The position numbers and the translations under genes are program-made. A stretch of DNA of 27,478 nt from a virus. The stretch spans positions 1 to 27,478 of IMG/VR virus record IMGVR_UViG_3300043395_001598; one strand, given 5' to 3'. The notes beneath the pieces are model-generated. The model ran no database searches. It had not been told where the DNA came from and saw only the letters and a list, made by a program, of their open reading frames with translations. Positions 1 through 27,478 of this stretch are shown piece after piece (positions within the stretch are counted from its first letter, which is position 1; the number at the start of each line of letters is the position of its first letter).

Positions 1-1105
1 CCATCAGGAAGTAGTTGCCACCCCATGCTTTAACGACAGCCCAGGCGAACTCATCAGAGCCACCGCCGGATGGATCGAGTGCCATGACGGTGGGAACTTC
101 ATCAACGTGAATGGTTCCCTCGGTCTGAGCCGGGCGGTAGAAGCGTGGATCGTGGGCCATGCCAACACAGGGCAGGTCTTCCAACGCAAGGTGTTTGCCC
201 TTTTCGTACATCAGCACCTCCGGTAGGTACTGATCAACGGTCATCACCATCAGGTCCCCGCAACGGAGGGGGTAACGCTCGATGTCCGAGAGGGTGGCGT
301 CCAGGAGGAACTGGAGCTTCCACTGCATCGGGGACATGGATAGCTCCCGCTGCAACAGCTCGTCTTCACTGAAGCGGGTGTCGGTGGGGCGACCGGTGGC
401 CAGGCCCACCCGTTTATCAATCAACGGTGCCAGTGCCCCCTTGTAGGGAGTGGTGTCACCAGGGACCCTGGCGGGCCACATCCGCATTTCGTAGTTCAGG
501 TCCCGCTGCAGAGCGAAGTAGATCGAGTCGGTGCTGCTGTGGGGTGTACCCAGGTAGACGATCTCTGGACCCTCGCCGGGCTTGAGGATGGCCTCCAGCT
601 CGTTCAAGCTGTTCCGTAACTTCTCACGTTGGACTTGCGTGAGACAGGTCTGGGGTGTTTCGCAGTCGTCAACCAGGATCGTGCTGGCACGGGAGCCGGT
701 GATCTGTCCGGTGATTCCCGCAGCGCGGACACTGGGGCTCTGCTCGATGTGCTGACAGGTGCCGACATCGAAGTTGATACGGCTGTAGCGACCGTCATAG
801 CTATTGGGCTGCATGTGCTTCAGCCATGACACCCGGCCAATGGTCTGCAGCAACCAGGCAGTCATGGCCTCCGATCTGGACATGGAGGCACTGATGATCA
901 GGATCTTCTCGTCCGGTTCGTGGTACAGCTTCCACAACAGGTACATCGCTGACAGGGTGGACTTCCCGCAGCCACGGAATGCAGCAATGACGCGGCGCTT
1001 GGGACCGTTCTCCAGGTAGTCCAGGATCTGCAGCTGCACCGGTGTTGGCGCCTGTGCCATTGACAGCTCACGCATCAACAGCGTGGTGAACTGACTCAAT
1101 GGCAT
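1..1105 (-). CDS. terL: Terminase large subunit, T7 gp19-like (partial, C-terminus off left edge)
   Basis: ATPase and nuclease of the DNA packaging motor, which docks on the portal and cuts concatemers. I read 368 codons from ATG 1105 with no stop before the window edge. Visible motifs: a Walker A-type loop AFRGCGKST at residues 42-50, Walker B STILVDDCE at about 141-149, a motif III-like YLGTPHS at about 184-190, and the start of the RNase H-like nuclease domain at VMALDPSGGGSDEFAW (Asp344). T7 gp19 is about 586 residues, so roughly 200 residues are missing. The start follows a hairpin terminator (1123-1142) and has no clear Shine-Dalgarno. A GTG five codons upstream is an alternative. It is the last visible gene of the minus-strand block, opposite to the virion genes. 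Confidence 0.93.
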   Translation of the reverse strand, partial: MPLSQFTTLLMRELSMAQAPTPVQLQILDYLENGPKRRVIAAFRGCGKSTLSAMYLLWKLYHEPDEKILIISASMSRSEAMTAWLLQTIGRVSWLKHMQPNSYDGRYSRINFDVGTCQHIEQSPSVRAAGITGQITGSRASTILVDDCETPQTCLTQVQREKLRNSLNELEAILKPGEGPEIVYLGTPHSSTDSIYFALQRDLNYEMRMWPARVPGDTTPYKGALAPLIDKRVGLATGRPTDTRFSEDELLQRELSMSPMQWKLQFLLDATLSDIERYPLRCGDLMVMTVDQYLPEVLMYEKGKHLALEDLPCVGMAHDPRFYRPAQTEGTIHVDEVPTVMALDPSGGGSDEFAWAVVKAWGGNYFLM

Positions 1106-1122
1106 TGGTTGTGTCACAAGAA

Positions 1123-6040: not shown

Positions 6041-7387
6041 GTGAACCTTGCAATGTCCGATCTATCCAAGCTCCACGCGGGGCTTCTCTTCTGTCTCCAT
6101 CAGCACCCCCAGTTGCGCATTAGCCAACTTCACATGCTGTTGACCATTGCCCTCAAGCCTGGCCAAACCCAGACCGAGCTGGCGATGGCCTGCGATCTGA
6201 CCCTCTCCGCCGTCTCTCGGGCGATGGATGTTCTGGGTAGTTCCGGGAGGCGAGACAAGATCAGCTCTGCCCGTATGGGTTGGGTTGAAACCCGCAGGAA
6301 CCAAGATGACGACCGGATTTTGCAGGTTTATCTAACCAAAAAGGCCACGAGTTTGTATCACTATTGGAGGCAATGGTTTATGGCAGTTCGATTCTGCCCA
6401 GATCGGAACAGGTGGAGAGTGCAGTTCAAGCGTGATGGAAAGCGCATCAGCAGGGACTTCCTCACCGAACGGGAGGCCGCGGAGTGGGAAGCGGGGGCTA
6501 ACCCAAAGGATCCCAGCCCCGTCCTGGAGGTGCGCCAACAGCGCCACCAAGAGGGCACCCTGGGCGACATGGTGCGGGTCTGCGCCAGTGCTGATTGGGC
6601 CGGTAAGGATCCCAGCCAGCTGGAGAACGCAGCCCGTCTGGCCAAGCTGATGGGACCCCGTACTCACGTCAGCGAGTTGACCATGCGGCGGCTGGATGAC
6701 CTAGTGGAGGACCTGCGGGCCAGTGGCCTCAGCAACACCACCATTAAGAAGTACATCAGCGCTGTCAGCGTGATGTTGAAGCGGGCCTGCCGTCTTGGGT
6801 ACATCGCGGCCATGCCGTTGATGCCCGAGAAGCGCACCCTCAAATCACCAGAGCCCCGTGATTTGGTGATCCGTGATGAGTGGATGGCTGCCCTATTGGA
6901 TGCCCTGGAGCGCAAGGAGAACCGGCTCTCGCTGGGCCTCACCATTTTTCTGCGTGAGATGGGTTGCCGTGTTGGTGAAGCTCTTGACCTGACATGGGAC
7001 CGGATTGACCTGGCCAAAGGCGAGGTTCAGTTCGTCAAAACCAAGGGCGCCATGCCCCGCAGGCTGCCACTCACCAAGCCTGCCCTTGGTGTGGTCAAAA
7101 CCATGCAGGCGCGGGGCCTGGAGACGGTGTTCCCGATCCATTACGGCACGTTCCTGTTGCACTACAGCGATGCCAAACATGAGGCCTGCGATCGGCTGGG
7201 CCTCGGCCCCACGGTCCGCAAGGAATGGGTCATCCATACCCTGCGGCACACCCGGATCACGGAGTTAGCTGCCAATGGCCACGCTGCTCCGGCCATTCAG
7301 GCATGGGCTGGGCACAAGTCGCTGTCAGTGACGCAGCGGTACATTCACGCTGCTGGTATCAACTTGGCATCCCTGGCACACTGTTGA
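6041..7387 (+). CDS. int: MarR-like domain fused in frame to tyrosine-recombinase integrase (448 aa)
   Basis: Site-specific recombinase for insertion into and excision from the host chromosome. Residues about 5-110 are a MarR-type winged helix: GQTQTELAMACDLTLSAVSR is the helix-turn-helix and RRNQDDDRILQVYLT the wing. From 114 on it is a complete integrase: an arm-binding strand domain (about 114-150), a core-binding helical domain (about 170-265) and a catalytic domain with Arg310, Lys333 or Lys335, His399, Arg402, His425 and nucleophile Tyr434 (HTLRHT and RYIH boxes). A strong GGAGG at 6366-6370 lies 9 nt before Met114 (ATG 6380), so a separate 335-aa integrase could also be made. The outer start may be GTG 6041 or ATG 6053. 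It stands directly before the candidate attP and the RNA polymerase, as in integrase-bearing cyanopodoviruses. Confidence 0.92.
   Translation: MNLAMSDLSKLHAGLLFCLHQHPQLRISQLHMLLTIALKPGQTQTELAMACDLTLSAVSRAMDVLGSSGRRDKISSARMGWVETRRNQDDDRILQVYLTKKATSLYHYWRQWFMAVRFCPDRNRWRVQFKRDGKRISRDFLTEREAAEWEAGANPKDPSPVLEVRQQRHQEGTLGDMVRVCASADWAGKDPSQLENAARLAKLMGPRTHVSELTMRRLDDLVEDLRASGLSNTTIKKYISAVSVMLKRACRLGYIAAMPLMPEKRTLKSPEPRDLVIRDEWMAALLDALERKENRLSLGLTIFLREMGCRVGEALDLTWDRIDLAKGEVQFVKTKGAMPRRLPLTKPALGVVKTMQARGLETVFPIHYGTFLLHYSDAKHEACDRLGLGPTVRKEWVIHTLRHTRITELAANGHAAPAIQAWAGHKSLSVTQRYIHAAGINLASLAHC
6042..6053 (+). promoter_or_regulatory. ACCTTGYA leader motif before the MarR-integrase gene
   Basis: TGAACCTTGCAA runs directly into ATG 6053, exactly as in the minus-strand copy at 2479-2468. 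No clear hairpin precedes this copy. A TTGACC box is at 6012-6017, but the matching -10 is poor. Confidence 0.45.
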
Positions 7388-7438: not shown

Positions 7439-7473
7439 ACAAAACCCTGAGGGGGTCTAGCAATCTGGCGAAT

Positions 7474-7492
7474 GCAGCGGACTCATAATCCG
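7474..7492. other. Candidate attP core resembling a CAU-anticodon tRNA arm
   Basis: GCAGCGGACTCATAATCCG has the form of a tRNA anticodon arm: stem CGGA/TCCG around the loop CTCATAA with anticodon CAT. This matches elongator tRNA-Met or tRNA-Ile2. No acceptor or T arm fits around it, so it is not a tRNA gene. Its position just 3' of the integrase gene is where cyanopodovirus attP sites are known. Integration at a host tRNA gene would put integrase and RNA polymerase at opposite prophage ends. Confidence 0.6.
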
Positions 7493-7555: not shown

Positions 7556-9943
7556 ATGCCCGATCAACAGTTGAACGCCGTCAAGGAGCCCCTGCACCAA
7601 CAGCTGGAGCTGGAATCCTGGTGCAGAAGTACAGGTGCAGACCGCATCCTTTCCACCAAGTGGGAGAAGGGTGCCAGCGGCACATTGACTCAACGCTTGG
7701 CCACTCTTTACCTGGAAAAAGTGCTGGAGATCTATGACAAATCTCACCGCACACCAGGCCGACAACAACACATCTGGGCGTTGATGAGTGACAAGAAAAG
7801 TGTTATTCATGTTGCCCTTGAAACCCTGGCCTATGTCATAGGCAACCTCAACGAGGAACGCCCCTTCACACAGCTCGCCACAACCATCGGTAAACGGGCT
7901 GAATACGTGCTCTGGCTACAGCACCCCCAATGGGGCAAATCCATGCACCTACAGGGCCTCAAGCTGGCCACCAACAACGACCTGAACATGGGCTTGGTGC
8001 GTAAGCGCCTCATCGATCAGGGCTTCCGTAAGGCCGCGGCCTATCACCCCCTCAAGCACGTTGAGCGTGCTGCCCTCGGTGCCTTCTTTATCGAGTGCAT
8101 TGCCGAGAGCACCAAGATGGTGGAGGTGGTGATGAAAACGGTGCACCGCAAGCGGCACCGCTGGGTTCGCTACACACCCCTCTACTGGCAGTTCCTGGAC
8201 CGGTGGAAGGATGCCGTGACCATGTTCCGGCCCCTCTACATGCCGATGATGGTGCCGCCCAGGGAGTGGACTGGGCACACCGGTGGTGGGTACCTGAGCA
8301 TCGCCACCCAGGTCAGCCCGGTGGATTGGGCACGCTGGCCTGAGGTGAGCAAGCGGATGCAACCCTGCGTTCTGGACAGCATCAACCTGCTGCAGGACCA
8401 GCCCTATCAGATCGATGAAATTCAGATGGGGCTGCTCGAAGCCTGTTGGAACTTGGGCCACCAGGTGGGCAGCGTCCCATCCAGACATCGCATTCCGGAA
8501 CCGGTTGACAATGAGTACAAGGTGAAGGGCCTGGGTCCCAGCGCCTACTGGAAAGCGGTCTGGAAATGGAAGTCAGATCAGCGCCGTGACGGTGAACGCA
8601 GCCGAATCGTGAACACCCTGGTTGCACACCGCCGCCTCGGTGATGCCCGGCCCCTCTGGTTTGTCCATCACATGGATCACCGTGGCCGGGTGTACAGCCG
8701 TGGATCACAGCTCAACATCCAAGGTCCCGATCACCAGCGATCGTTGATGCAGTTCGATGAACGCAGCCCGATCAAGGGGCATGAACGGGAGTTTGCCTGG
8801 AGTCTGGGCGGTGCACTGGGCCTCGCGCCGGATCCCAAAGAACGGGAGCGGTACCTGGACACGATGAGCGCAGCCATCGTCAAGGCGGGCAACGATCCCC
8901 TCGGCAGCCTTGCCTACTGGGCTGACGTGAAGGAACCGTGGCGGTTCATCCAGCTGTGCCGTGACTGGGCCAGCTACATCGAGAACCCTGGATACCAGAG
9001 CGGCACCATCCACTGGTTGGATCAAACCTGCTCCGGCTGGGGACACGTGGCTTGCCTGACCGGTGATGCCCAGCTGGCCCAGTACACCAATGTCACAGGC
9101 CGTGCCTCGGCTGACCTGTACACCGGCCTCGGGAAGCTGGTGGTGGCCCGGTTGAAGTGGATCAACGAGAACGAGGAGATGGATGAGCGCCGCACCAAGG
9201 CTGTGACCTGGTGGTGCAAGCACGTGATCCCCCGTTCGTTGTGGAAGAAGGTGCTGATGCCGATCATCTATGGCCGCAGCTACCTGTCCCTGGCTGACAC
9301 CATCAAGCTGTACTTGAGGGATGAGGTGGAGGACTTCCTCACCGAGGAAGGACTGCGCATTGTGGACCTGGCTCTGGTGTTGGCCACGATCACAACCAAG
9401 GTGGTGAATGAAGCACTGCCCAACGTGCGTGATCTGTCGCGCTGGCTCACCCAGTTGAGCAACATGCAGATCGATGCCGGTCATCGGGCGTACTGGTTCA
9501 CACCCAATGGACTGGCGGTTGAGTGTTATCAGTCCGATAGCAGGCAGGATCAGATCGAGTTAGCCCTCGGCAGGCGCACCATCTCAGTGGGTGTGCGGGA
9601 TGCCACGGGTTGCCCGGTCAATAAGCGGCGCACCAGCCGGAAACTTGTGCCTGATTTTGTGCACAGCATGGATGCTGCATTCCTGCAGCGGTTCGTTGCT
9701 CATTGGGCAACGTATGACCATCCGATTGCAACGGTTCATGACTGTTTTGGCACCACGCTGGAGCACGTCGGAACGCTGCAGTCAGAGCTGAATGATCAGT
9801 GGCATCGGTTCTATTCCGTAGACCACCTGACGAGGCACCAGGGCATGGTTGAGATGGTGCTCGGGAAGGAGGTGCCAGCACCCCCGATTGTGGGGACGCT
9901 GGACCGGAGCAAGGTGGGGGAAAACCCATTCCTCTTCAGTTGA
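7556..9943 (+). CDS. T7-like single-subunit DNA-directed RNA polymerase (795 aa)
   Basis: Transcribes middle and late phage genes from phage promoters. Hallmarks of the family: motif A MDHRGRVYS with catalytic Asp374; LDQTCSGWGH, matching the T7 LDGSCSGIQH segment; motif B KKVLMPIIYG with Lys564 and Tyr572 at the same 8-residue spacing as T7 Lys631 and Tyr639; PDFVHSMDAAFL; and motif C HDCFGTT with catalytic Asp729 (T7 HDSFGT, Cys replacing Ser). It is somewhat shorter than T7 RNA polymerase (883 aa), with the loss mostly before motif A. The C-terminus ends NPFLFS, a relative of the T7 FAFA foot. It stands just after the attP, with TTGACA at 7501 but no good -10. Confidence 0.96.
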   Translation: MPDQQLNAVKEPLHQQLELESWCRSTGADRILSTKWEKGASGTLTQRLATLYLEKVLEIYDKSHRTPGRQQHIWALMSDKKSVIHVALETLAYVIGNLNEERPFTQLATTIGKRAEYVLWLQHPQWGKSMHLQGLKLATNNDLNMGLVRKRLIDQGFRKAAAYHPLKHVERAALGAFFIECIAESTKMVEVVMKTVHRKRHRWVRYTPLYWQFLDRWKDAVTMFRPLYMPMMVPPREWTGHTGGGYLSIATQVSPVDWARWPEVSKRMQPCVLDSINLLQDQPYQIDEIQMGLLEACWNLGHQVGSVPSRHRIPEPVDNEYKVKGLGPSAYWKAVWKWKSDQRRDGERSRIVNTLVAHRRLGDARPLWFVHHMDHRGRVYSRGSQLNIQGPDHQRSLMQFDERSPIKGHEREFAWSLGGALGLAPDPKERERYLDTMSAAIVKAGNDPLGSLAYWADVKEPWRFIQLCRDWASYIENPGYQSGTIHWLDQTCSGWGHVACLTGDAQLAQYTNVTGRASADLYTGLGKLVVARLKWINENEEMDERRTKAVTWWCKHVIPRSLWKKVLMPIIYGRSYLSLADTIKLYLRDEVEDFLTEEGLRIVDLALVLATITTKVVNEALPNVRDLSRWLTQLSNMQIDAGHRAYWFTPNGLAVECYQSDSRQDQIELALGRRTISVGVRDATGCPVNKRRTSRKLVPDFVHSMDAAFLQRFVAHWATYDHPIATVHDCFGTTLEHVGTLQSELNDQWHRFYSVDHLTRHQGMVEMVLGKEVPAPPIVGTLDRSKVGENPFLFS

Positions 9944-10050: not shown

Positions 10051-10644
10051 TTGGCACCTAAACACGTCACCCCTCTGGGCACCATCGTCTTCGGCGCTCT
10101 CTGTGATCCCCGCGAAAACCCCAACAGCGGAAAGATCGAATGGAACCTTGGATTTGTTCTATCCCTGGCTGACTCTGAGCCCCTGATGGAGGCCATCGAG
10201 CAGGCCCTGGCTGATAAGCGTGCATCCGATGCTCGCTTCCCTGCCACCAACGACAAGCTCAAGATGCCCTACCGCATGAGCACCAAGAAGCTGGAAGACG
10301 GCAGCCGCGAAGACGATCCAGACAACCTGCTCTGGAACTTCAAGCGGATGGCCCAGTACCGCACCAAGACAGGCGACATCAAGAACAACACCCGCCCGTC
10401 CATCTATGACAGCCGCGGCATGGTAGTCACAGAGTCCGTCAGCTCCATCCCCGGCGGCACCACCGGCAAGGTGATCTTTGAGGTGTACTGCTACGACATG
10501 CCCGGCACCAAGGGCGTGCAGCTTCAGCTCCTGGGTTTCCAGATCGCTCAGCTGAAGACCACCCAGGTAGAACTGCAACCCATTGAGGGTGGCTGGATCA
10601 GCGAAGAAGCTGACCCGATCGCTGCTGCTCTGGCTGCCAGCTGA
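10051..10644 (+). CDS. Single-stranded DNA-binding protein, T7 gp2.5-like (197 aa)
   Basis: Coats ssDNA during replication and recombination and, in T7, contacts helicase and polymerase. The N-terminus MAPKHVTPLGTIVFGALCDP and the central KMPYRMSTKKLEDG segment fit the OB-fold of this family. The C-terminus is acidic only in part (ISEEADPIAAALAAS), unlike the long acidic tail of T7 gp2.5. No in-frame ATG precedes the conserved start, so I use TTG 10051; no Shine-Dalgarno is visible. It is the first gene of the replication module, preceded by a promoter candidate and a hairpin, and it overlaps the next gene by one base (TGATG). Confidence 0.85.
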   Translation: MAPKHVTPLGTIVFGALCDPRENPNSGKIEWNLGFVLSLADSEPLMEAIEQALADKRASDARFPATNDKLKMPYRMSTKKLEDGSREDDPDNLLWNFKRMAQYRTKTGDIKNNTRPSIYDSRGMVVTESVSSIPGGTTGKVIFEVYCYDMPGTKGVQLQLLGFQIAQLKTTQVELQPIEGGWISEEADPIAAALAAS

Positions 10645-11186
10645 TGCTCGATCGCTACAACAGGCGGCTCCGGTCCCGCAAGGATCGTGAACACCGGTCC
10701 CAGTTGGAGCAACAGGTGGAGGAGGCTCTGGTATCCCAGGGCCTCGCCCCCCAGTACGAAACGGAAAAGTTCTCCTACGTCCTGCACCGCAAGTACACAC
10801 CCGACTTCAAGGTGGGTGAGGTGTACGTGGAGGTGAAGGGATGGTGGCCATCGGCGGAACGCACCAAGTTCCTCGCGGTGATCATGAACAACCCTGGCCT
10901 GCCCATCTTTGTTGCACTTCAACGTCCTCATCTGACGTTGAGCAAACAAAGCAAGACCACTTATGCCCAGTGGTGCACTAAGCACGGCATTGCCTGGTGC
11001 CCCATCCCCATCCCACCTGACTTCATGCAGCAATGGCTGAACGGTGCACGTCCCACCTTCCATGTCCCGGCCCCGAATGCGAAAGCACAGACGCAGCGAC
11101 TCAGTACCCAGACGGTTCTGTTTTCTGCTTCTCCTGTCAACAGCGGTACACAGCTGACGGAAAACCTTGGAACAACAGATCAATGA
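10644..11186 (+). CDS. Endonuclease I, T7 gp3-like Holliday junction resolvase (180 aa)
   Basis: Resolves branched DNA and, in T7, degrades host DNA. The active-site pattern YTPDF-x5-VYVEVKGWW at about residues 52-69 is the family signature (Asp, then Glu-x-Lys; T7 Asp55, Glu65, Lys67). Residues about 131-180 have an odd composition (Pro, Thr, Gln-rich) and are encoded by DNA that also encodes the primase zinc finger in another frame. T7 gp3 has 149 residues, so this tail is an extension. Its stop codon sits in an ATGA with the internal Met51 codon of the primase-helicase. It starts at TGATG after SSB. Confidence 0.9.
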   Translation: MLDRYNRRLRSRKDREHRSQLEQQVEEALVSQGLAPQYETEKFSYVLHRKYTPDFKVGEVYVEVKGWWPSAERTKFLAVIMNNPGLPIFVALQRPHLTLSKQSKTTYAQWCTKHGIAWCPIPIPPDFMQQWLNGARPTFHVPAPNAKAQTQRLSTQTVLFSASPVNSGTQLTENLGTTDQ

Positions 11187-12694
11187 GCCTGCTTGATGAG
11201 TTCAAATCCAAGAACATTAGGACTGACGCGCCAGCCGCCAAGTCGTCCCTGATCACATCAACTCCATTTATCACCCCGGTTCGTGGCATCACTGAGCGAA
11301 CAACTCGCTTGTATGACTACGGCGTTGGCAAGTACAGGCAGGAGGGGGCGCATGTCGCCAACCTCCGGGACAGCAACGGCCTGGTGGTTGCCCAGAAGAT
11401 CCGTTATGGCGACAAGAAGTTTGCCGTCATTGGAGAGGGTGACCAAGACAAGCTCCAGATGTTTGGCCAGCACATTGGAAGCGAAGGCACCTTGGTCATC
11501 ACCGAGGGTGAGCTTGATGCCATGTCGGTGCATGAGGCACTCACCCTCCGCCGCATCAAAGGGAACTATGTAGTTGTTTCACTGATCAATGGGGTGGGCT
11601 CGGCCAAGAAGAACACCACAGCACAACTGTCCTGGATCCTCGGGTTCAAGCGGGTGGTGGTGTTCATGGACATGGATGACCCAGGCCGCAAGGCTGCTGC
11701 CACTATTGCCGAGCTGGTTGGCCCTACTGCTGCTGTGGTCGGTGCCTTCCCTTACAAGGACGCCAATGAAGCATGGCAAGCCCATGACCACCAGGCAATT
11801 CTCGATGCCGTCAACAACGCCAAGATCCAGCGTCCTGACGCCATCATCCACGCGCCCGATCTCCTGGAGAGGGTGCTCAAGCCAGAGCGCAGGCAGGGTC
11901 TGCCATTTCCATGGAAAGGCTGGAACAAGGTCACCGAGGGGATGAAGCCCGGCCAGCTGATCATGATCAGTGGTGGCACCGGGATTGGGAAATCCCTGTT
12001 CACCCGCAGCATCGCGCTGGATCTCTGCCGCAACGGCACCAACGTGGCGTACATCGGCCTGGAGGAGAGCTGCGAAACCAGCCTGGAGCGGATGCTGTCA
12101 GAGCAGATGCAAACCCCGCTCTACCGGGATACCCCGGAGCAACGTGCACTGCGCGATCCGGAGGAGATCAAGGCCGCACTCGATCAGTTTGCCGGCCACC
12201 TGTATCTGTTGGATAAGTTCGGCAGCGATGACTTCGACTCTTTTGTTGCCACCGTTAAACATTACGTGCTGGCTGAGCAATGCCCGGTCATTGTCCTAGA
12301 TCACTTCTCATTGTTGGCTGATGGTATTTCCCTTGCTACTGATCAGCGGCGGGCTATTGATCGTTGCATCAAAGATCTCAAGACGCTCTGTGTTGAACTC
12401 AACTTCACCATGCTCGTCGTCTGCCACCTATCGAGATCGACAGGCATTGGCAAACCGCATGAAGAAGGAGGCGAGCCCACACTTGCCGAACTACGAGGAT
12501 CTCATTCCCTAGCGCAGATCCCCGACACGATCGTGATGCTGGTTCGCAACCCTAGGGCAGAGGATTCACGCGAGGCTAACACTACTCATTGCTGGATCAA
12601 AAAGAACCGCGTGACTGGGGTGCTTGGTGAGATGTCCAAGCTTGAGTATCACCCAAGGCTTTGTGTTTTCACCGAAACAGAGGTGGCTGTATGA
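11033..12694 (+). CDS. Primase-helicase, T7 gp4-like (553 aa)
   Basis: Makes RNA primers and unwinds the fork. An N-terminal zinc ribbon has Cys11, Cys16, Cys32 and Cys35. The TOPRIM domain has EGELD (158-162) and DMDDPGR (213-219). The RecA-like helicase domain has Walker A GGTGIGKS (314-321), a Walker B region CPVIVLDHFSLL and LVVCHLSR, as in T7 gp4. The length is close to the 566 aa of T7. The first 51 codons overlap the gp3-like gene by 154 nt. Met51 (ATG 11183) lies directly after the zinc ribbon and overlaps the gp3 stop as ATGA, so a short form like T7 gp4B is likely. It overlaps the next gene by ATGA as well. Confidence 0.95.
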   Translation: MAERCTSHLPCPGPECESTDAATQYPDGSVFCFSCQQRYTADGKPWNNRSMSLLDEFKSKNIRTDAPAAKSSLITSTPFITPVRGITERTTRLYDYGVGKYRQEGAHVANLRDSNGLVVAQKIRYGDKKFAVIGEGDQDKLQMFGQHIGSEGTLVITEGELDAMSVHEALTLRRIKGNYVVVSLINGVGSAKKNTTAQLSWILGFKRVVVFMDMDDPGRKAAATIAELVGPTAAVVGAFPYKDANEAWQAHDHQAILDAVNNAKIQRPDAIIHAPDLLERVLKPERRQGLPFPWKGWNKVTEGMKPGQLIMISGGTGIGKSLFTRSIALDLCRNGTNVAYIGLEESCETSLERMLSEQMQTPLYRDTPEQRALRDPEEIKAALDQFAGHLYLLDKFGSDDFDSFVATVKHYVLAEQCPVIVLDHFSLLADGISLATDQRRAIDRCIKDLKTLCVELNFTMLVVCHLSRSTGIGKPHEEGGEPTLAELRGSHSLAQIPDTIVMLVRNPRAEDSREANTTHCWIKKNRVTGVLGEMSKLEYHPRLCVFTETEVAV

Positions 12695-13194
12695 CCAGAA
12701 TAGTTTCCACTACGTGCTCGCAATGTGGCCTTGCAAAAACCAGCTACACCCGACCATCCGATGGCCGGGTTGAGTGGAGATGCTATCCGTGCCACAACGA
12801 AAAGATGAGGGCGCTTTACGCCTCTTCTCCAGAGCGCCGAGCAAGCGTGGCTGCAGCAAGAAAGCGAAGACGCGCCATCCCTGAGAAACGAGCCCTGGAA
12901 TCCAGGCAATTCAAGGAGGCTCACCTTCGCCGCAGGTTTGGTATTGGGCTGAAAGACTACGAGGCATTGCTTGAAAAGCAGGGAGGCAAGTGCGCTGTTT
13001 GCAGTAGCACCAACGCAAAGGCGCCGAAAGGTGGCAGTGCCTTCCATGTAGACCACTGCCATCAAACGGGAAACATCCGCGGCTTGCTTTGCTTTGACTG
13101 CAACAGCGGGATAGGGAAACTAGGCGACAACCTTGAGGGCCTCATGCGGGCGGTCCGCTACTTAGAGGCCATTGAAAACCACGCTGCCTTCTAG
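12691..13194 (+). CDS. Endonuclease VII-like HNH nuclease (167 aa)
   Basis: The C-terminal half has the recombination endonuclease VII signature: CAVC, then HVDHCH (the His-Asp-His catalytic core) and CFDCN. The two Cys pairs bind structural zinc. The N-terminus has a second probable zinc site (CSQCG and CYPCHN) and a basic helical linker rich in Arg/Ala (VAAARKRRRAIPEKRAL). Start ATG 12691 forms an ATGA overlap with the helicase stop; the frame is open upstream to a TTG at 12661. T4 endonuclease VII resolves branched DNA, but many such stand-alone genes are mobile HNH nucleases. It stands where T7-like phages carry DNA polymerase. Confidence 0.85.
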   Translation: MTRIVSTTCSQCGLAKTSYTRPSDGRVEWRCYPCHNEKMRALYASSPERRASVAAARKRRRAIPEKRALESRQFKEAHLRRRFGIGLKDYEALLEKQGGKCAVCSSTNAKAPKGGSAFHVDHCHQTGNIRGLLCFDCNSGIGKLGDNLEGLMRAVRYLEAIENHAAF

Positions 13195-13196
13195 CC

Positions 13197-13457
13197 ATGG
13201 AGTACATCCACCCAGAGTACATTCATCCAAAATACCTGACAACTGAACCGTTGCCCGACGGTTACTACCGAATCTCTGGCCAGTACATCAACGACCTTTA
13301 TGACCATGCCATCCAAAACTTCAACGAACAATCCGCCAAGTGGGAAAAAGGGAGCTACCCCTACACCTACGCTCAAGCCTTCTGGAACGGATACGGAGCA
13401 GCCATGGCAGGACTCAGGGATTGCGCAAGACAATTCCCTGTTGATCCGCAGGTGTAG
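13197..13457 (+). CDS. Hypothetical protein (86 aa)
   Basis: Starts with a short internal repeat EYIHPEYIHPKY, then an aromatic-rich helical body (YYRISGQYINDLYDHAIQNF, YTYAQAFWNGYGAAMAGL). No family recognised. ATG lies 2 nt after the HNH stop, so it belongs to the same operon. An overlapping frame (13300 on) reads as protein only in its last 65 codons, which I list as a separate gene. Confidence 0.65.
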   Translation: MEYIHPEYIHPKYLTTEPLPDGYYRISGQYINDLYDHAIQNFNEQSAKWEKGSYPYTYAQAFWNGYGAAMAGLRDCARQFPVDPQV

Positions 13458-13461
13458 TGAC

Positions 13462-13656
13462 GTGTACTGGTTTCCAGATTCGCGCTATGGCCTTAGCCAC
13501 ACTCACCGTATGGCTCAAGTCTTTCTTGAATTGGCCAACGAAATTGAAACGTGGGCACCGGACAAGAGAGAAGCTCCGCTCTGTTATCGGACGGTGCTGG
13601 ATGTCGCTGACCGTTTACGCAGGCACGCCGTTGAACGAAAGCCACTGGATCAGTGA
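13462..13656 (+). CDS. Hypothetical protein, GTG start (64 aa)
   Basis: The sequence after GTG 13462 is YWFPDSRYGLSHTHRMAQVF, then LELANEIETWAPDKREAP and a helix TVLDVADRLRRHAVERK. This end reads like short phage proteins with a leucine-rich helix. The frame is open further upstream, but that part (13300-13461) is Pro/Thr/Ser-rich and shadows the previous gene. AGGTG precedes the GTG at a suitable distance, and the gene begins 4 nt after the previous stop. No function assigned. Confidence 0.5.
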   Translation: MYWFPDSRYGLSHTHRMAQVFLELANEIETWAPDKREAPLCYRTVLDVADRLRRHAVERKPLDQ

Positions 13657-13660
13657 CACG

Positions 13661-13870
13661 GTGGCGCTGCAGTGCTTTGACCGTGATGGTCACCCGCCTG
13701 TGTACGTGGGTTCAATGGGTGATGGAAAGTCTGAAGCGTTCTATGCGCTGGGCGATCTTGCCCATTGGTTTATGGAGATGGGGCTGGACATGCAAGACCC
13801 CATCTGGGATTTCATTGATCAACTAGCAACTCAGGAACTAGCCGATGCCACTGAATCAGATGACGCCTGA
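13661..13870 (+). CDS. Hypothetical acidic protein, GTG start (69 aa)
   Basis: Starts GTG 13661, four bases after the previous stop. The sequence begins (V)ALQCFDRDGHPPVYVGSMG and continues as an amphipathic helix (EAFYALGDLAHWFMEMGLDM) with an acidic C-terminus (ELADATESDDA). The frame extends upstream to a GTG at 13457, but that part is out of place, being the shadow of the preceding gene. No family recognised. It overlaps the next gene by 26 nt. Confidence 0.5.
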   Translation: MALQCFDRDGHPPVYVGSMGDGKSEAFYALGDLAHWFMEMGLDMQDPIWDFIDQLATQELADATESDDA

Positions 13871-14135
13871 TTGCCCCGGTTGTGGGGCATGGGTCACCAA
13901 GGTGATCCTGACCAAGCTTGATGATGAGTGCGAGAACGTCGTGCGTCGCAGGCACTGTGAATACTGTGGCCACCGCTTCTACACCAAGCAGCACCACGAG
14001 GAGCTGGTGGAAGTGAAGTGGGTTAGCGGAAAGAAAGGCAAGGCCACGATCCCAAGGGTGACCAAGGTGTTGCCCACTCCATTCAAGGGCCAGGTGTCTG
14101 AACCGCTGCCCGTCCGGGTGAAGGGGGCGGCATGA
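13845..14135 (+). CDS. Zinc-ribbon protein, possible transcription regulator (96 aa)
   Basis: Residues 10-13 (CPGC) and about 38-41 (CEYC), followed by GHRFYTKQH, form a zinc ribbon of the kind seen in NrdR and transcription factor N-termini. The C-terminal half is basic and Pro/Val-rich. Starts considered are ATG 13845 and ATG 13860 (MTPDCPGCG), both overlapping the preceding gene. The gene ends with an ATGA overlap into the exonuclease gene. It could bind nucleic acid or RNA polymerase. The exact role is unknown. Confidence 0.65.
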   Translation: MPLNQMTPDCPGCGAWVTKVILTKLDDECENVVRRRHCEYCGHRFYTKQHHEELVEVKWVSGKKGKATIPRVTKVLPTPFKGQVSEPLPVRVKGAA

Positions 14136-14944
14136 GGATCCTTCTTGATGCGGACATGCTGCTGTTCCGTGCGATGGCAGCAACCGAGGTGGAGGTGGAG
14201 CTGGCTCCTGATGTGTGGACCAGACACAGCGAGGCGGGTCATGCCAGGGAGATGTACTGGCAACAGCTGCATAGCTGGTGTCACCTGCTGGGGTGTGAGC
14301 TAGGTGATGTGTGGCACTGCTTCACCGATCGCAGTGCATTCAGGCGGGACCTGTTCCCTGGGTATAAGGCCAACCGGAAATCACCCAAGCCGATTGGCTA
14401 CAAGCACCTACGGGCTGAACTGCTGACCGAGGACACGGCGTTCATGTTCAGCAAGATTGAGGCGGATGACCTGATGGGCATCTTTGCCACGATGTCAACA
14501 GGCGATGAAGTGGTGATTGCATCAGGCGACAAAGACTTGATGCAGATACCTGGAGTACACTTGTGGCTAGATACAGGGAGGGAGGTAGAGCCTGAAGATG
14601 GACTTGTGGTTGAACGAAGCGGTGACACCATCATCAAGCGGAACACGGATGAACATGCAGAGCGCTTTACGTACCAACAGATCCTCACGGGTGACGCGAC
14701 CGACGGCATCCCCGGTTGCAAAGGGATGGGTCCAGTTGGAGCCCGCAAGCTCGTCGATGGATTTGACCTCGCAGACCCTGTGGGTTGCTGGGAAGCGATT
14801 GTTCGGGCGTATGAAACGAAGGGGAAAGTGGAGCAGCCATCCGACTTCGCAACGCAACAGGCCCGACTGGTGAGGGTGCTGCGTGCTGGGGAGTACAACT
14901 TTGATACACACGAGGTGAAGCTATGGAATCCCCCGACGCACTGA
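14132..14944 (+). CDS. 5'-3' exonuclease, T7 gp6-like, FEN family (270 aa)
   Basis: Removes RNA primers and degrades DNA 5'-3'. The FEN/PIN hallmarks are in order: MRILLDADMLLFRA (Asp6, Asp8), DRSAFRRDLFPGYKANRKS (helical gateway), KIEADDLMGI (acidic pair), IASGDKDLMQI (acidic), and GDATDGIPGCKGMGPVGARKL, the helix-3-turn-helix DNA-binding motif. T7 gp6 is about 300 aa. The start follows GGGGGCGGC, and ATGA overlaps the previous stop. In T7 it lies downstream of DNA polymerase, which is not present here. It overlaps the next small gene by 22 nt. Confidence 0.92.
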   Translation: MRILLDADMLLFRAMAATEVEVELAPDVWTRHSEAGHAREMYWQQLHSWCHLLGCELGDVWHCFTDRSAFRRDLFPGYKANRKSPKPIGYKHLRAELLTEDTAFMFSKIEADDLMGIFATMSTGDEVVIASGDKDLMQIPGVHLWLDTGREVEPEDGLVVERSGDTIIKRNTDEHAERFTYQQILTGDATDGIPGCKGMGPVGARKLVDGFDLADPVGCWEAIVRAYETKGKVEQPSDFATQQARLVRVLRAGEYNFDTHEVKLWNPPTH

Positions 14945-15105
14945 AGCGCATCATTGCATCGAAGCTTGATGATGAAATGCTTGATGCACTAGATGAGTTG
15001 TTTCCAGAGCGGACGCCAGAGTTGACTGACTCACTCGATCAGGTTCGGTACGCTTCTGGTCAGAGGTCTGTCATTCGATTCCTGCGGGGATTGGTTGATG
15101 GATAA
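14923..15105 (+). CDS. Hypothetical acidic small protein (60 aa)
   Basis: The sequence MESPDALKRIIASKLDDEML is followed by DALDELFPERTPELTDSLDQ and a basic helical end. It is mostly acidic in the middle. GAGG lies 6 nt before the ATG. It overlaps the exonuclease 3' end by 22 nt. No family recognised. It sits at the junction between the DNA metabolism and virion modules. Confidence 0.55.
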   Translation: MESPDALKRIIASKLDDEMLDALDELFPERTPELTDSLDQVRYASGQRSVIRFLRGLVDG

Positions 15106-15126
15106 GCAATTCATCCCCTCCCTGCC

Positions 15127-16005
15127 ATGGGCAAGAAGCAACAGAAGCAGCAGGCCAAGATCCAGCAGGCCATCACCCAAGCCGGATCTGATGGCAAGAT
15201 CAGCGCCTCAGAATTACAAAAGGTCTACCGGAAGTTTGGTCAAGCTGCTATCGCTGAACAGCTGGCTCCCTATGCCCTCGGCAATCCCAATGTCGAACTA
15301 GGCAAAGGAGCGAGAGACCTCACTGGTGTCAGAGCAAAGAACGGTGTTGCCACCTACACACCACGTGAATGGCAGGCCTTCGGCCGCACATCTGGCACCG
15401 TCAAAACCCACACCGCGGATGCCAGCGGTCTCAGCCCACTGTTCCTGAGTAACGCTTCCGGTGGCTACACCTACATGGGTGCTGGTGCTGGTAGCAACGC
15501 AGCCAATGGCGGTACCACTGCTGACGGTGGCACCCCTGGTGCTGTCCCCAACGACGGTTCCTACAAGAGCATCGAGAGCCTGTACCAGCAGCAGATGGAT
15601 GCAGCTCAGGCCAAGATCGATGAAATGCAGGCCAAGCAGGCAGAAGAAATCAGAACACTCACTGTTGACTTCGGCAGCCAAATCACCGGCATCCAAAGCG
15701 CAGCTGATCAACGGGTGAATCAACTTCGTGATCTGATGTTGATTCAGCAGCAGCAGGCCGCCTCAACCCAGACACTGCTTCAGCAACAGGCGCAGGCTGC
15801 ACAAACTGCCTACCAAGAACAGGCACGCCAAGCTGCTGCACTCAGCAAGGCATACATCCCAGCGGTGGAGCAAAGTGCAACCACTGCCGCACTGGGTGAT
15901 CAACGCAATACCAACAATTCAACCAATAACACCCTCAGCTCCCTGGCCATTGTCAGTGGCCTGGGTACCAACTCGAATCTCCTCGCTGGCCTGCAACTCG
16001 CCTGA
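15127..16005 (+). CDS. Virion-associated structural protein, unknown (292 aa)
   Basis: First gene of the structural module, directly before the portal. Basic N-terminus (GKKQQKQQAKIQQAITQ), an EF-hand-like SDGKISASELQKVYRKFG, then a Gly/Ala/Ser-rich region (about residues 105-145), then a long Gln/Ala-rich coiled coil (about 150-245). Genes of this general design occur upstream of the portal in cyanopodoviruses, where they are usually virion proteins of unknown role. It is linked to the portal gene by a TGATG overlap at 16003-16007. No enzymatic motif seen. Confidence 0.7.
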   Translation: MGKKQQKQQAKIQQAITQAGSDGKISASELQKVYRKFGQAAIAEQLAPYALGNPNVELGKGARDLTGVRAKNGVATYTPREWQAFGRTSGTVKTHTADASGLSPLFLSNASGGYTYMGAGAGSNAANGGTTADGGTPGAVPNDGSYKSIESLYQQQMDAAQAKIDEMQAKQAEEIRTLTVDFGSQITGIQSAADQRVNQLRDLMLIQQQQAASTQTLLQQQAQAAQTAYQEQARQAAALSKAYIPAVEQSATTAALGDQRNTNNSTNNTLSSLAIVSGLGTNSNLLAGLQLA

Positions 16006-27111: not shown

Positions 27112-27478
27112 CTAGTTCACCTTGATGAAGTAGTTGACGGCGTAGGACTTGGGCTTGGTTTCAGCATCACCGCCGCCTGTGATTTGAACGGTGTGGGTGT
27201 GAGCGCCATCGGTGCTTGTGTATGGGTTTGCGCCGCTCCAATCGCTCCAGTTGGAGACACGTTTGTTGGACCCCATGAGCTTGCTCCCGTACCAAATTGC
27301 ATCGCCACCCCATGAAGCCGCACCGTTGGTGTGGTTGTGATCACCTGTGTTGTTGGTTGTACCTGTGAACGCGGTGTTCGGTCGCTTCGTTGAGTCGCCA
27401 CTAAACGCATTCAGCGCACCGCCGTCCCAACCAGACAGGCTCTGCCCAGCCATCCGCAGGAAGGAGCCCCGCAGGTCA
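27112..27478 (-). CDS. Tail fibre C-terminal part, collar-type receptor-binding tip (partial, N-terminus off right edge)
   Basis: The frame is open to the window edge. The C-terminus has the typical fibre-tip text: DLRGSFLRMAGQSLSGWDGG, DHNHT and GAHTHTVQITGGGDAETKPK, then SYAVNYFIKVN. His-rich DHNH and HTHT repeats commonly bind metal ions in phage fibre tips, and the TKPKSYAVNYFIKV ending is a common phage fibre and collar ending. The real start is outside. It is followed by the holin-like gene, as in T7. It presumably determines host recognition. Confidence 0.85.
   Translation of the reverse strand, partial: DLRGSFLRMAGQSLSGWDGGALNAFSGDSTKRPNTAFTGTTNNTGDHNHTNGAASWGGDAIWYGSKLMGSNKRVSNWSDWSGANPYTSTDGAHTHTVQITGGGDAETKPKSYAVNYFIKVN

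Follow-up and report, generated by a model that had tools for sequence, protein, structure and literature searches.

A T7-like phage lineage of picocyanobacteria that lacks the DNA polymerase gene and probably replicates with a host polymerase

The window, i.e., the whole stretch of 27,478 bases analyzed here, is likely to come from a temperate T7-like phage infecting Cyanobium/Synechococcus-type picocyanobacteria, a member of a lineage without a T7-type DNA polymerase that uses a polymerase of its host. Two traits of T7-like Autographiviridae are present, namely a single-subunit RNA polymerase and the T7 order of replication and head-tail genes, whereas a third, the family A DNA polymerase, is absent. 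This gene is widespread in T7-like Autographiviridae but not universal, as the cyanopodovirus group MPP-C (P-SCSP1, P-SCSP2), published in 2022, demonstrates (PMC9860041).

Absence of a DNA Polymerase Gene

The region between the primase-helicase and exonuclease genes contains the following features.

11033..12694, plus strand: T7 gp4-type primase-helicase without the acidic C-terminal tail, ending ..CVFTETEVAV (phrog_239, E = 7e-134; tail comparison)
12686..13182, plus strand: 497-bp insertion carrying the HNH gene, within the last codons of the primase-helicase (empty site in L004-L006)
12691..13194, plus strand: Endonuclease VII-type HNH gene, ATGA overlap with the primase-helicase (PF02945, E = 4.5e-24; phrog_2914, E = 1e-32)
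13197..13457, plus strand: small gene A (conserved in relatives)
~13441..13656, plus strand: small gene B, probable TTG start (codon-position substitutions; S-SRP02 homologue)
~13661..13870, plus strand: small gene C, probable GTG start (codon-position substitutions 10/5/26 vs. L004)
13845..14135, plus strand: stand-alone NrdR-type zinc ribbon (PF22811, E = 2e-9)
14132..14944, plus strand: T7 gp6-type 5'-3' exonuclease (phrog_107, E = 1e-55)

The original prediction placed no polymerase in this 1.44-kb interval and no polymerase motif anywhere in the window, and profile searches agree on both points. The family A profile PF00476 gave no match in the window or in 30 further records (relatives and named phages). 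A custom profile built from 10 T7-like polymerases and searched against all six frames with filters off recovers all 11 polymerase-bearing control phages at E < 1e-180 and gives no E-value below 2 in the window, its relatives, S39-C11, P-SCSP1u, P-SCSP2, S-SRP02, and S38-C3. Family B and C polymerases and a sliding clamp are likewise absent from the window, its relatives, and S39-C11; the only hits of these searches were sub-threshold ones in the P-SSP7 control. A phage-encoded clamp for the capture of host Pol III was considered and dropped, as no clamp was found, and the S-SRP02 gene annotated as "DNA pol III beta" gives only a sub-threshold match.

The polymerase is also absent from approximately 40 relatives, four of them self-closing circles, and from the public genome S39-C11. 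The gap between primase-helicase and exonuclease spans 23-1507 nt in 47 polymerase-less loci (some being one contig counted twice) vs. 1884-4394 nt in 11 polymerase-bearing phages.

Host Assignment and Phylogenetic Placement

Other genes of the window, as well as the attachment site, are listed below.

2..1117, minus strand: terminase large subunit (TerL), cut by the window edge (77% to S39-C11 TerL)
6041..7387, plus strand: MarR-like wHTH read through into a tyrosine integrase (PF00589, E = 3e-19; two ORFs in G002)
7452..7492, plus strand: attP core, the 5' half of tRNA-Met(CAT) (36-bp core in 39 cyanobacterial genome contigs)
7556..9943, plus strand: T7-type RNA polymerase (phrog_414, E = 3e-114)
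10051..10644, plus strand: gp2.5-type ssDNA-binding protein (SSB), C-terminus ..ADPIAAALAAS, not ..DF (PF21265, phrog_112)
10644..11186, plus strand: endonuclease I (PF05367, E = 7e-22)

The att site was located by reading the sequence after the integrase, GGGGGTCTAGCAATCTGGCGAATGCAGCGGACTCATAATCCG, whose 36-base core carries one C/T ambiguity; neither tRNA nor Rfam searches of the window were informative. All 39 genome contigs with this core are named cyanobacteria, mostly Synechococcus, Cyanobium, or Vulcanococcus, and the core lies within tRNA-Met(CAT) in all six loci tested. Since attP is the 5' half of a cyanobacterial tRNA-Met, the host is assigned to cyanobacteria, which bears out the predicted cyanobacterial T7-like phage. 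Other relatives carry the 5' half of an apparent tRNA-Leu(UAA), read by eye, at this position. The MarR-like and integrase parts, a single ORF in the window, are split into two overlapping ORFs in G002, among others. The fusion arises because an A-run near 6338 is one A short, through a genuine frameshift or a mistake in the assembly.

In a concatenated tree of six genes (TerL, portal, capsid, two tail tube proteins, and exonuclease), the window groups with S39-C11 (bootstrap 100); the polymerase-bearing P-RSP2 is nearest to them (73), and MPP-C falls outside (96). A clade of the window lineage with MPP-C is rejected (AU p = 0.002), whereas one with S-SRP02/S38-C3 is not (AU p = 0.37). Membership in the reported polymerase-less group, as originally suggested, is thus rejected.

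Uncultured phage MedDCM-OCT-S39-C11 (Krakvirus S39C11, AP013549) resembles the window in gene order, in MarR plus integrase, in the missing polymerase, and in the reversed TerL and reversed tail/internal virion block common to the window lineage. It differs in its gap, which holds no HNH gene and no match to small genes A-C or the zinc ribbon. Given protein identities of 42-77% (TerL 77%, capsid 75%, primase-helicase 52%, RNA polymerase 42%), the window is unlikely to belong to the genus Krakvirus in the ICTV sense. MPP-C shares with the window the T7-like type, the cyanobacterial host, the exonuclease directly after the primase-helicase, and the absence of both DNA polymerase and ribonucleotide reductase; however, its genomes measure 37.3-37.9 kb, compared with ~41.9-43.3 kb in the self-closing relatives of the window (itself a fragment), its tail block is not reversed, and its helicase tail is partly kept. 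S-SRP02 and MedDCM-OCT-S38-C3 (Stopalavirus) also lack the polymerase and carry the NrdR-type zinc ribbon, and S-SRP02 has a homologue of gene B, but in neither phage was a primase-helicase detected.

Two further observations concern these phages. The S-SRP02 gene annotated as "DNA polymerase I" (L064 22389-23129) matches the 5'-3' exonuclease only and has no polymerase domain; a published tree used a "DNA polymerase" gene for S-SRP02 (PMC8790148). P-RSP2 (L065) is the opposite of the window: the lineage profile finds no T7-type RNA polymerase in it, and the DNA polymerase is present.

The polymerase absence in this lineage, its helicase tail, and the helicase clade described below appear to be unreported in the literature searched; this search, which was not exhaustive, returned no paper naming Krakvirus or discussing the missing polymerase of S39-C11. 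Cyanopodoviruses are routinely counted and classified by their DNA polymerase gene. With a second, separate polymerase-less lineage, such marker surveys overlook more phages than could be concluded from the MPP-C report.

History of the Polymerase Loss

Gene-by-gene comparisons disagree on whether the window lineage and MPP-C form a group: RNA polymerase, TerL, portal, and capsid reject it, whereas primase-helicase, exonuclease, SSB, and tail proteins do not. A tree of 107 helicases unites all polymerase-less ones in a single clade (SH-aLRT 96.8; FastTree support 0.63), including those of three T7-like contigs (L206, L211, and L218) that have no polymerase, an exonuclease abutting the primase-helicase, and a helicase ~35% identical. 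These contigs may represent additional polymerase-less groups.

The polymerase could thus have been lost once, in a replication module later exchanged between virion backgrounds, and not separately in MPP-C and the window lineage. The helicase clade and the helicase, exonuclease, and SSB trees, none of which rejects a common group, make such a history plausible, but we consider it somewhat doubtful, as four other genes (TerL, portal, capsid, and RNA polymerase) reject the clade and the helicase tree itself does not reject an alternative with P-RSP2 (AU 0.074). Both counts of independent losses are possible, the helicase tree suggesting one and the virion genes at least two. The question concerns history and is compatible with the use of a host polymerase. 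A broader proposal, that a single polymerase-free T7-like module (SSB, tail-less primase-helicase, and exonuclease) arose once, was rebuilt for the host Pol III replisome, and moved between virion backgrounds, is tentative and would be rather doubtful at present.

Proposed Replication with a Host Polymerase

A replicative polymerase is required at forks that a phage helicase opens; as this phage encodes none, we infer that a host enzyme must act. Dependence on the host polymerase, part of the original prediction, is the only sensible reading of the missing gene. In the proposed mechanism, the phage, keeping its RNA polymerase, gp2.5-type SSB, endonuclease I, primase-helicase, and exonuclease, would open and prime its own forks, DNA would be synthesized by a recruited host polymerase, most likely Pol III, and the phage helicase, SSB, and nucleases would work with this enzyme.

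The T7 gp4 helicase uses an acidic C-terminal tail to bind basic patches on gp5, and deleting this tail lowers processivity (PMC12593628); the contact is also covered in PMC7231222. Such a tail, consisting of 2-7 acidic residues after the conserved core and ending in an aromatic residue or DE, was found in 17/17 named polymerase-bearing phages and in 0/50 polymerase-less rows, and the primase-helicase of the window ends in EVAV. In a wider search of 69 classifiable loci, the strict tail rule held for 33/62 polymerase-bearing and 0/7 polymerase-less loci; these counts, drawn from related and hence not independent sequences, suggest a trend between tail and polymerase presence but no strict rule.

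The missing gp5-type contact probably favors Pol III over Pol I. Host Pol I, host Pol III, and an unrecognized enzyme were the options offered by the authors of the MPP-C report (PMC9860041). In the window lineage, Pol I is an unlikely choice: it is a family A enzyme, as is the product of the missing T7 gp5-type gene, but the helicase tail that holds the gp5-type enzyme in T7 is gone. Pol I is, moreover, mainly a repair enzyme. The absent tail provides a concrete, testable sign of a change of partner from phage to host polymerase, and it bears on a question left by PMC9860041, namely by what means T7-like phages without a polymerase replicate their DNA.

Most SSBs of the lineage, like that of the window, end without the usual acidic-Phe terminus (..DF). 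The SSBs of S-SRP02 (L064 18985-19653) and S38-C3 (L069 4910-5590), phages with neither polymerase nor detectable primase-helicase, end in EEIPF and DDDMPF, respectively. These ends resemble the bacterial SSB tail DDDIPF, which recruits host replication proteins.

Completeness of the Analyzed Genomes

As a fragment, the window breaks off within TerL at one end (base 2) and within a tail-fibre-like gene at the other (base 27477), and it falls roughly 14-15 kb short of its relatives. Since it is incomplete, the absence of the polymerase from this individual genome rests on the relatives. The closest long relative, G002, many of whose core genes show 92-97% amino-acid identity, spans most of the absent stretch, including the tail-fibre and internal-virion block. 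Among the relatives, G011 has an identical 25-bp end overlap, and its ends adjoin in other genomes; G005, G012, and G018 have 92-99% identical end redundancy and appear to close as circles. The four constitute units of ~41.9-43.3 kb. S39-C11 was deposited as complete. Because the complete relatives and G002 have no polymerase, the gene is missing from the whole lineage and not merely from the fragment.

A polymerase too diverged to be recognized, or encoded in the unsequenced part of the genome, is very unlikely. The window does lack those 14-15 kb, and several large proteins have no family match and could in principle hide an enzyme; however, unfiltered searches of the complete relatives and G002 were negative, the small genes of the gap are only ~69-96 codons long, and the large unassigned proteins sit in the tail/internal virion block, outside which there is no candidate of polymerase size. 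In G002, the other large genes encode a tail fibre, an internal virion protein, or proteins without a family match.

Insertion of the HNH Gene

The HNH gene is a small late insertion and no substitute for the polymerase. In L004 and L005, the primase-helicase ends in ..GTTGCTGCCTTCTAG, and L006 has the same end but with TGA. The window has 497 extra bases ahead of GCTGCCTTCTAG, the former primase-helicase end, which now terminates the HNH gene (13183-13194), and the helicase has gained a new end overlapping the HNH start (ATGA). The border of the insertion may move by 3 bp owing to a GCT repeat. The insertion occurs only in the window and in one identical contig (L003/L117) and is absent from other relatives; the next best matches to the HNH gene are 39-52% identical.

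An HNH gene had been predicted in the polymerase's interval, which is correct for its position; that it occupies the polymerase's place does not hold, given the empty site and the HNH-less relatives without polymerase. Although it sits in the interval that normally holds the polymerase, replacement or destruction of the polymerase gene by the HNH gene is practically discounted and was rejected as an explanation, since the site is cleanly empty in L004-L006 and other relatives with this interval have neither gene.

Phage Endonuclease VII-type HNH genes (PF02945) share with this gene the domain and the arrangement as a small free-standing gene beside a replication gene, but here it lies at the very end of the primase-helicase; the closest full-length phage matches are ~40% identical. 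As in the class of HNH and homing endonucleases, the insertion has an empty site in relatives. Homing with co-conversion of flanks was not retained, as no clear signature was seen: the dip in identity to G002 beside the insertion recurs elsewhere. The other dips lie at 11200-11600, in the primase N-terminal part, and at 15000-15900, in the gene before the portal, where the window is ~60-68% identical to G002 vs. ~93% around. To judge from this pattern, both blocks are probably products of mosaic exchange.

Small Genes of the Interval

The predicted contents of the gap, an endonuclease VII-like HNH gene and a zinc ribbon, were confirmed by Pfam and PHROGs matches. For the three small genes between them, the number was right, but their borders as longest ORFs were not: by codon-position substitutions against four relatives, the frame of ORF 13300 codes in 13457-13653, and that of ORF 13457 is coding only after ~13657. 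The first 100 bases of gene A, probably misaligned against L004/L005, were excluded from this comparison. In relatives, the small genes directly follow the primase-helicase, without the HNH gene.

No match to ribonucleotide reductase (PF02867) was found in the phages carrying the NrdR-type zinc ribbon (window lineage, S-SRP02, and S38-C3), and that this protein might release host nucleotide synthesis is only an idea. The zinc ribbon gene (13845-14135) is kept in most relatives and also occurs, with extra sequence, in S-SRP02 and S38-C3.
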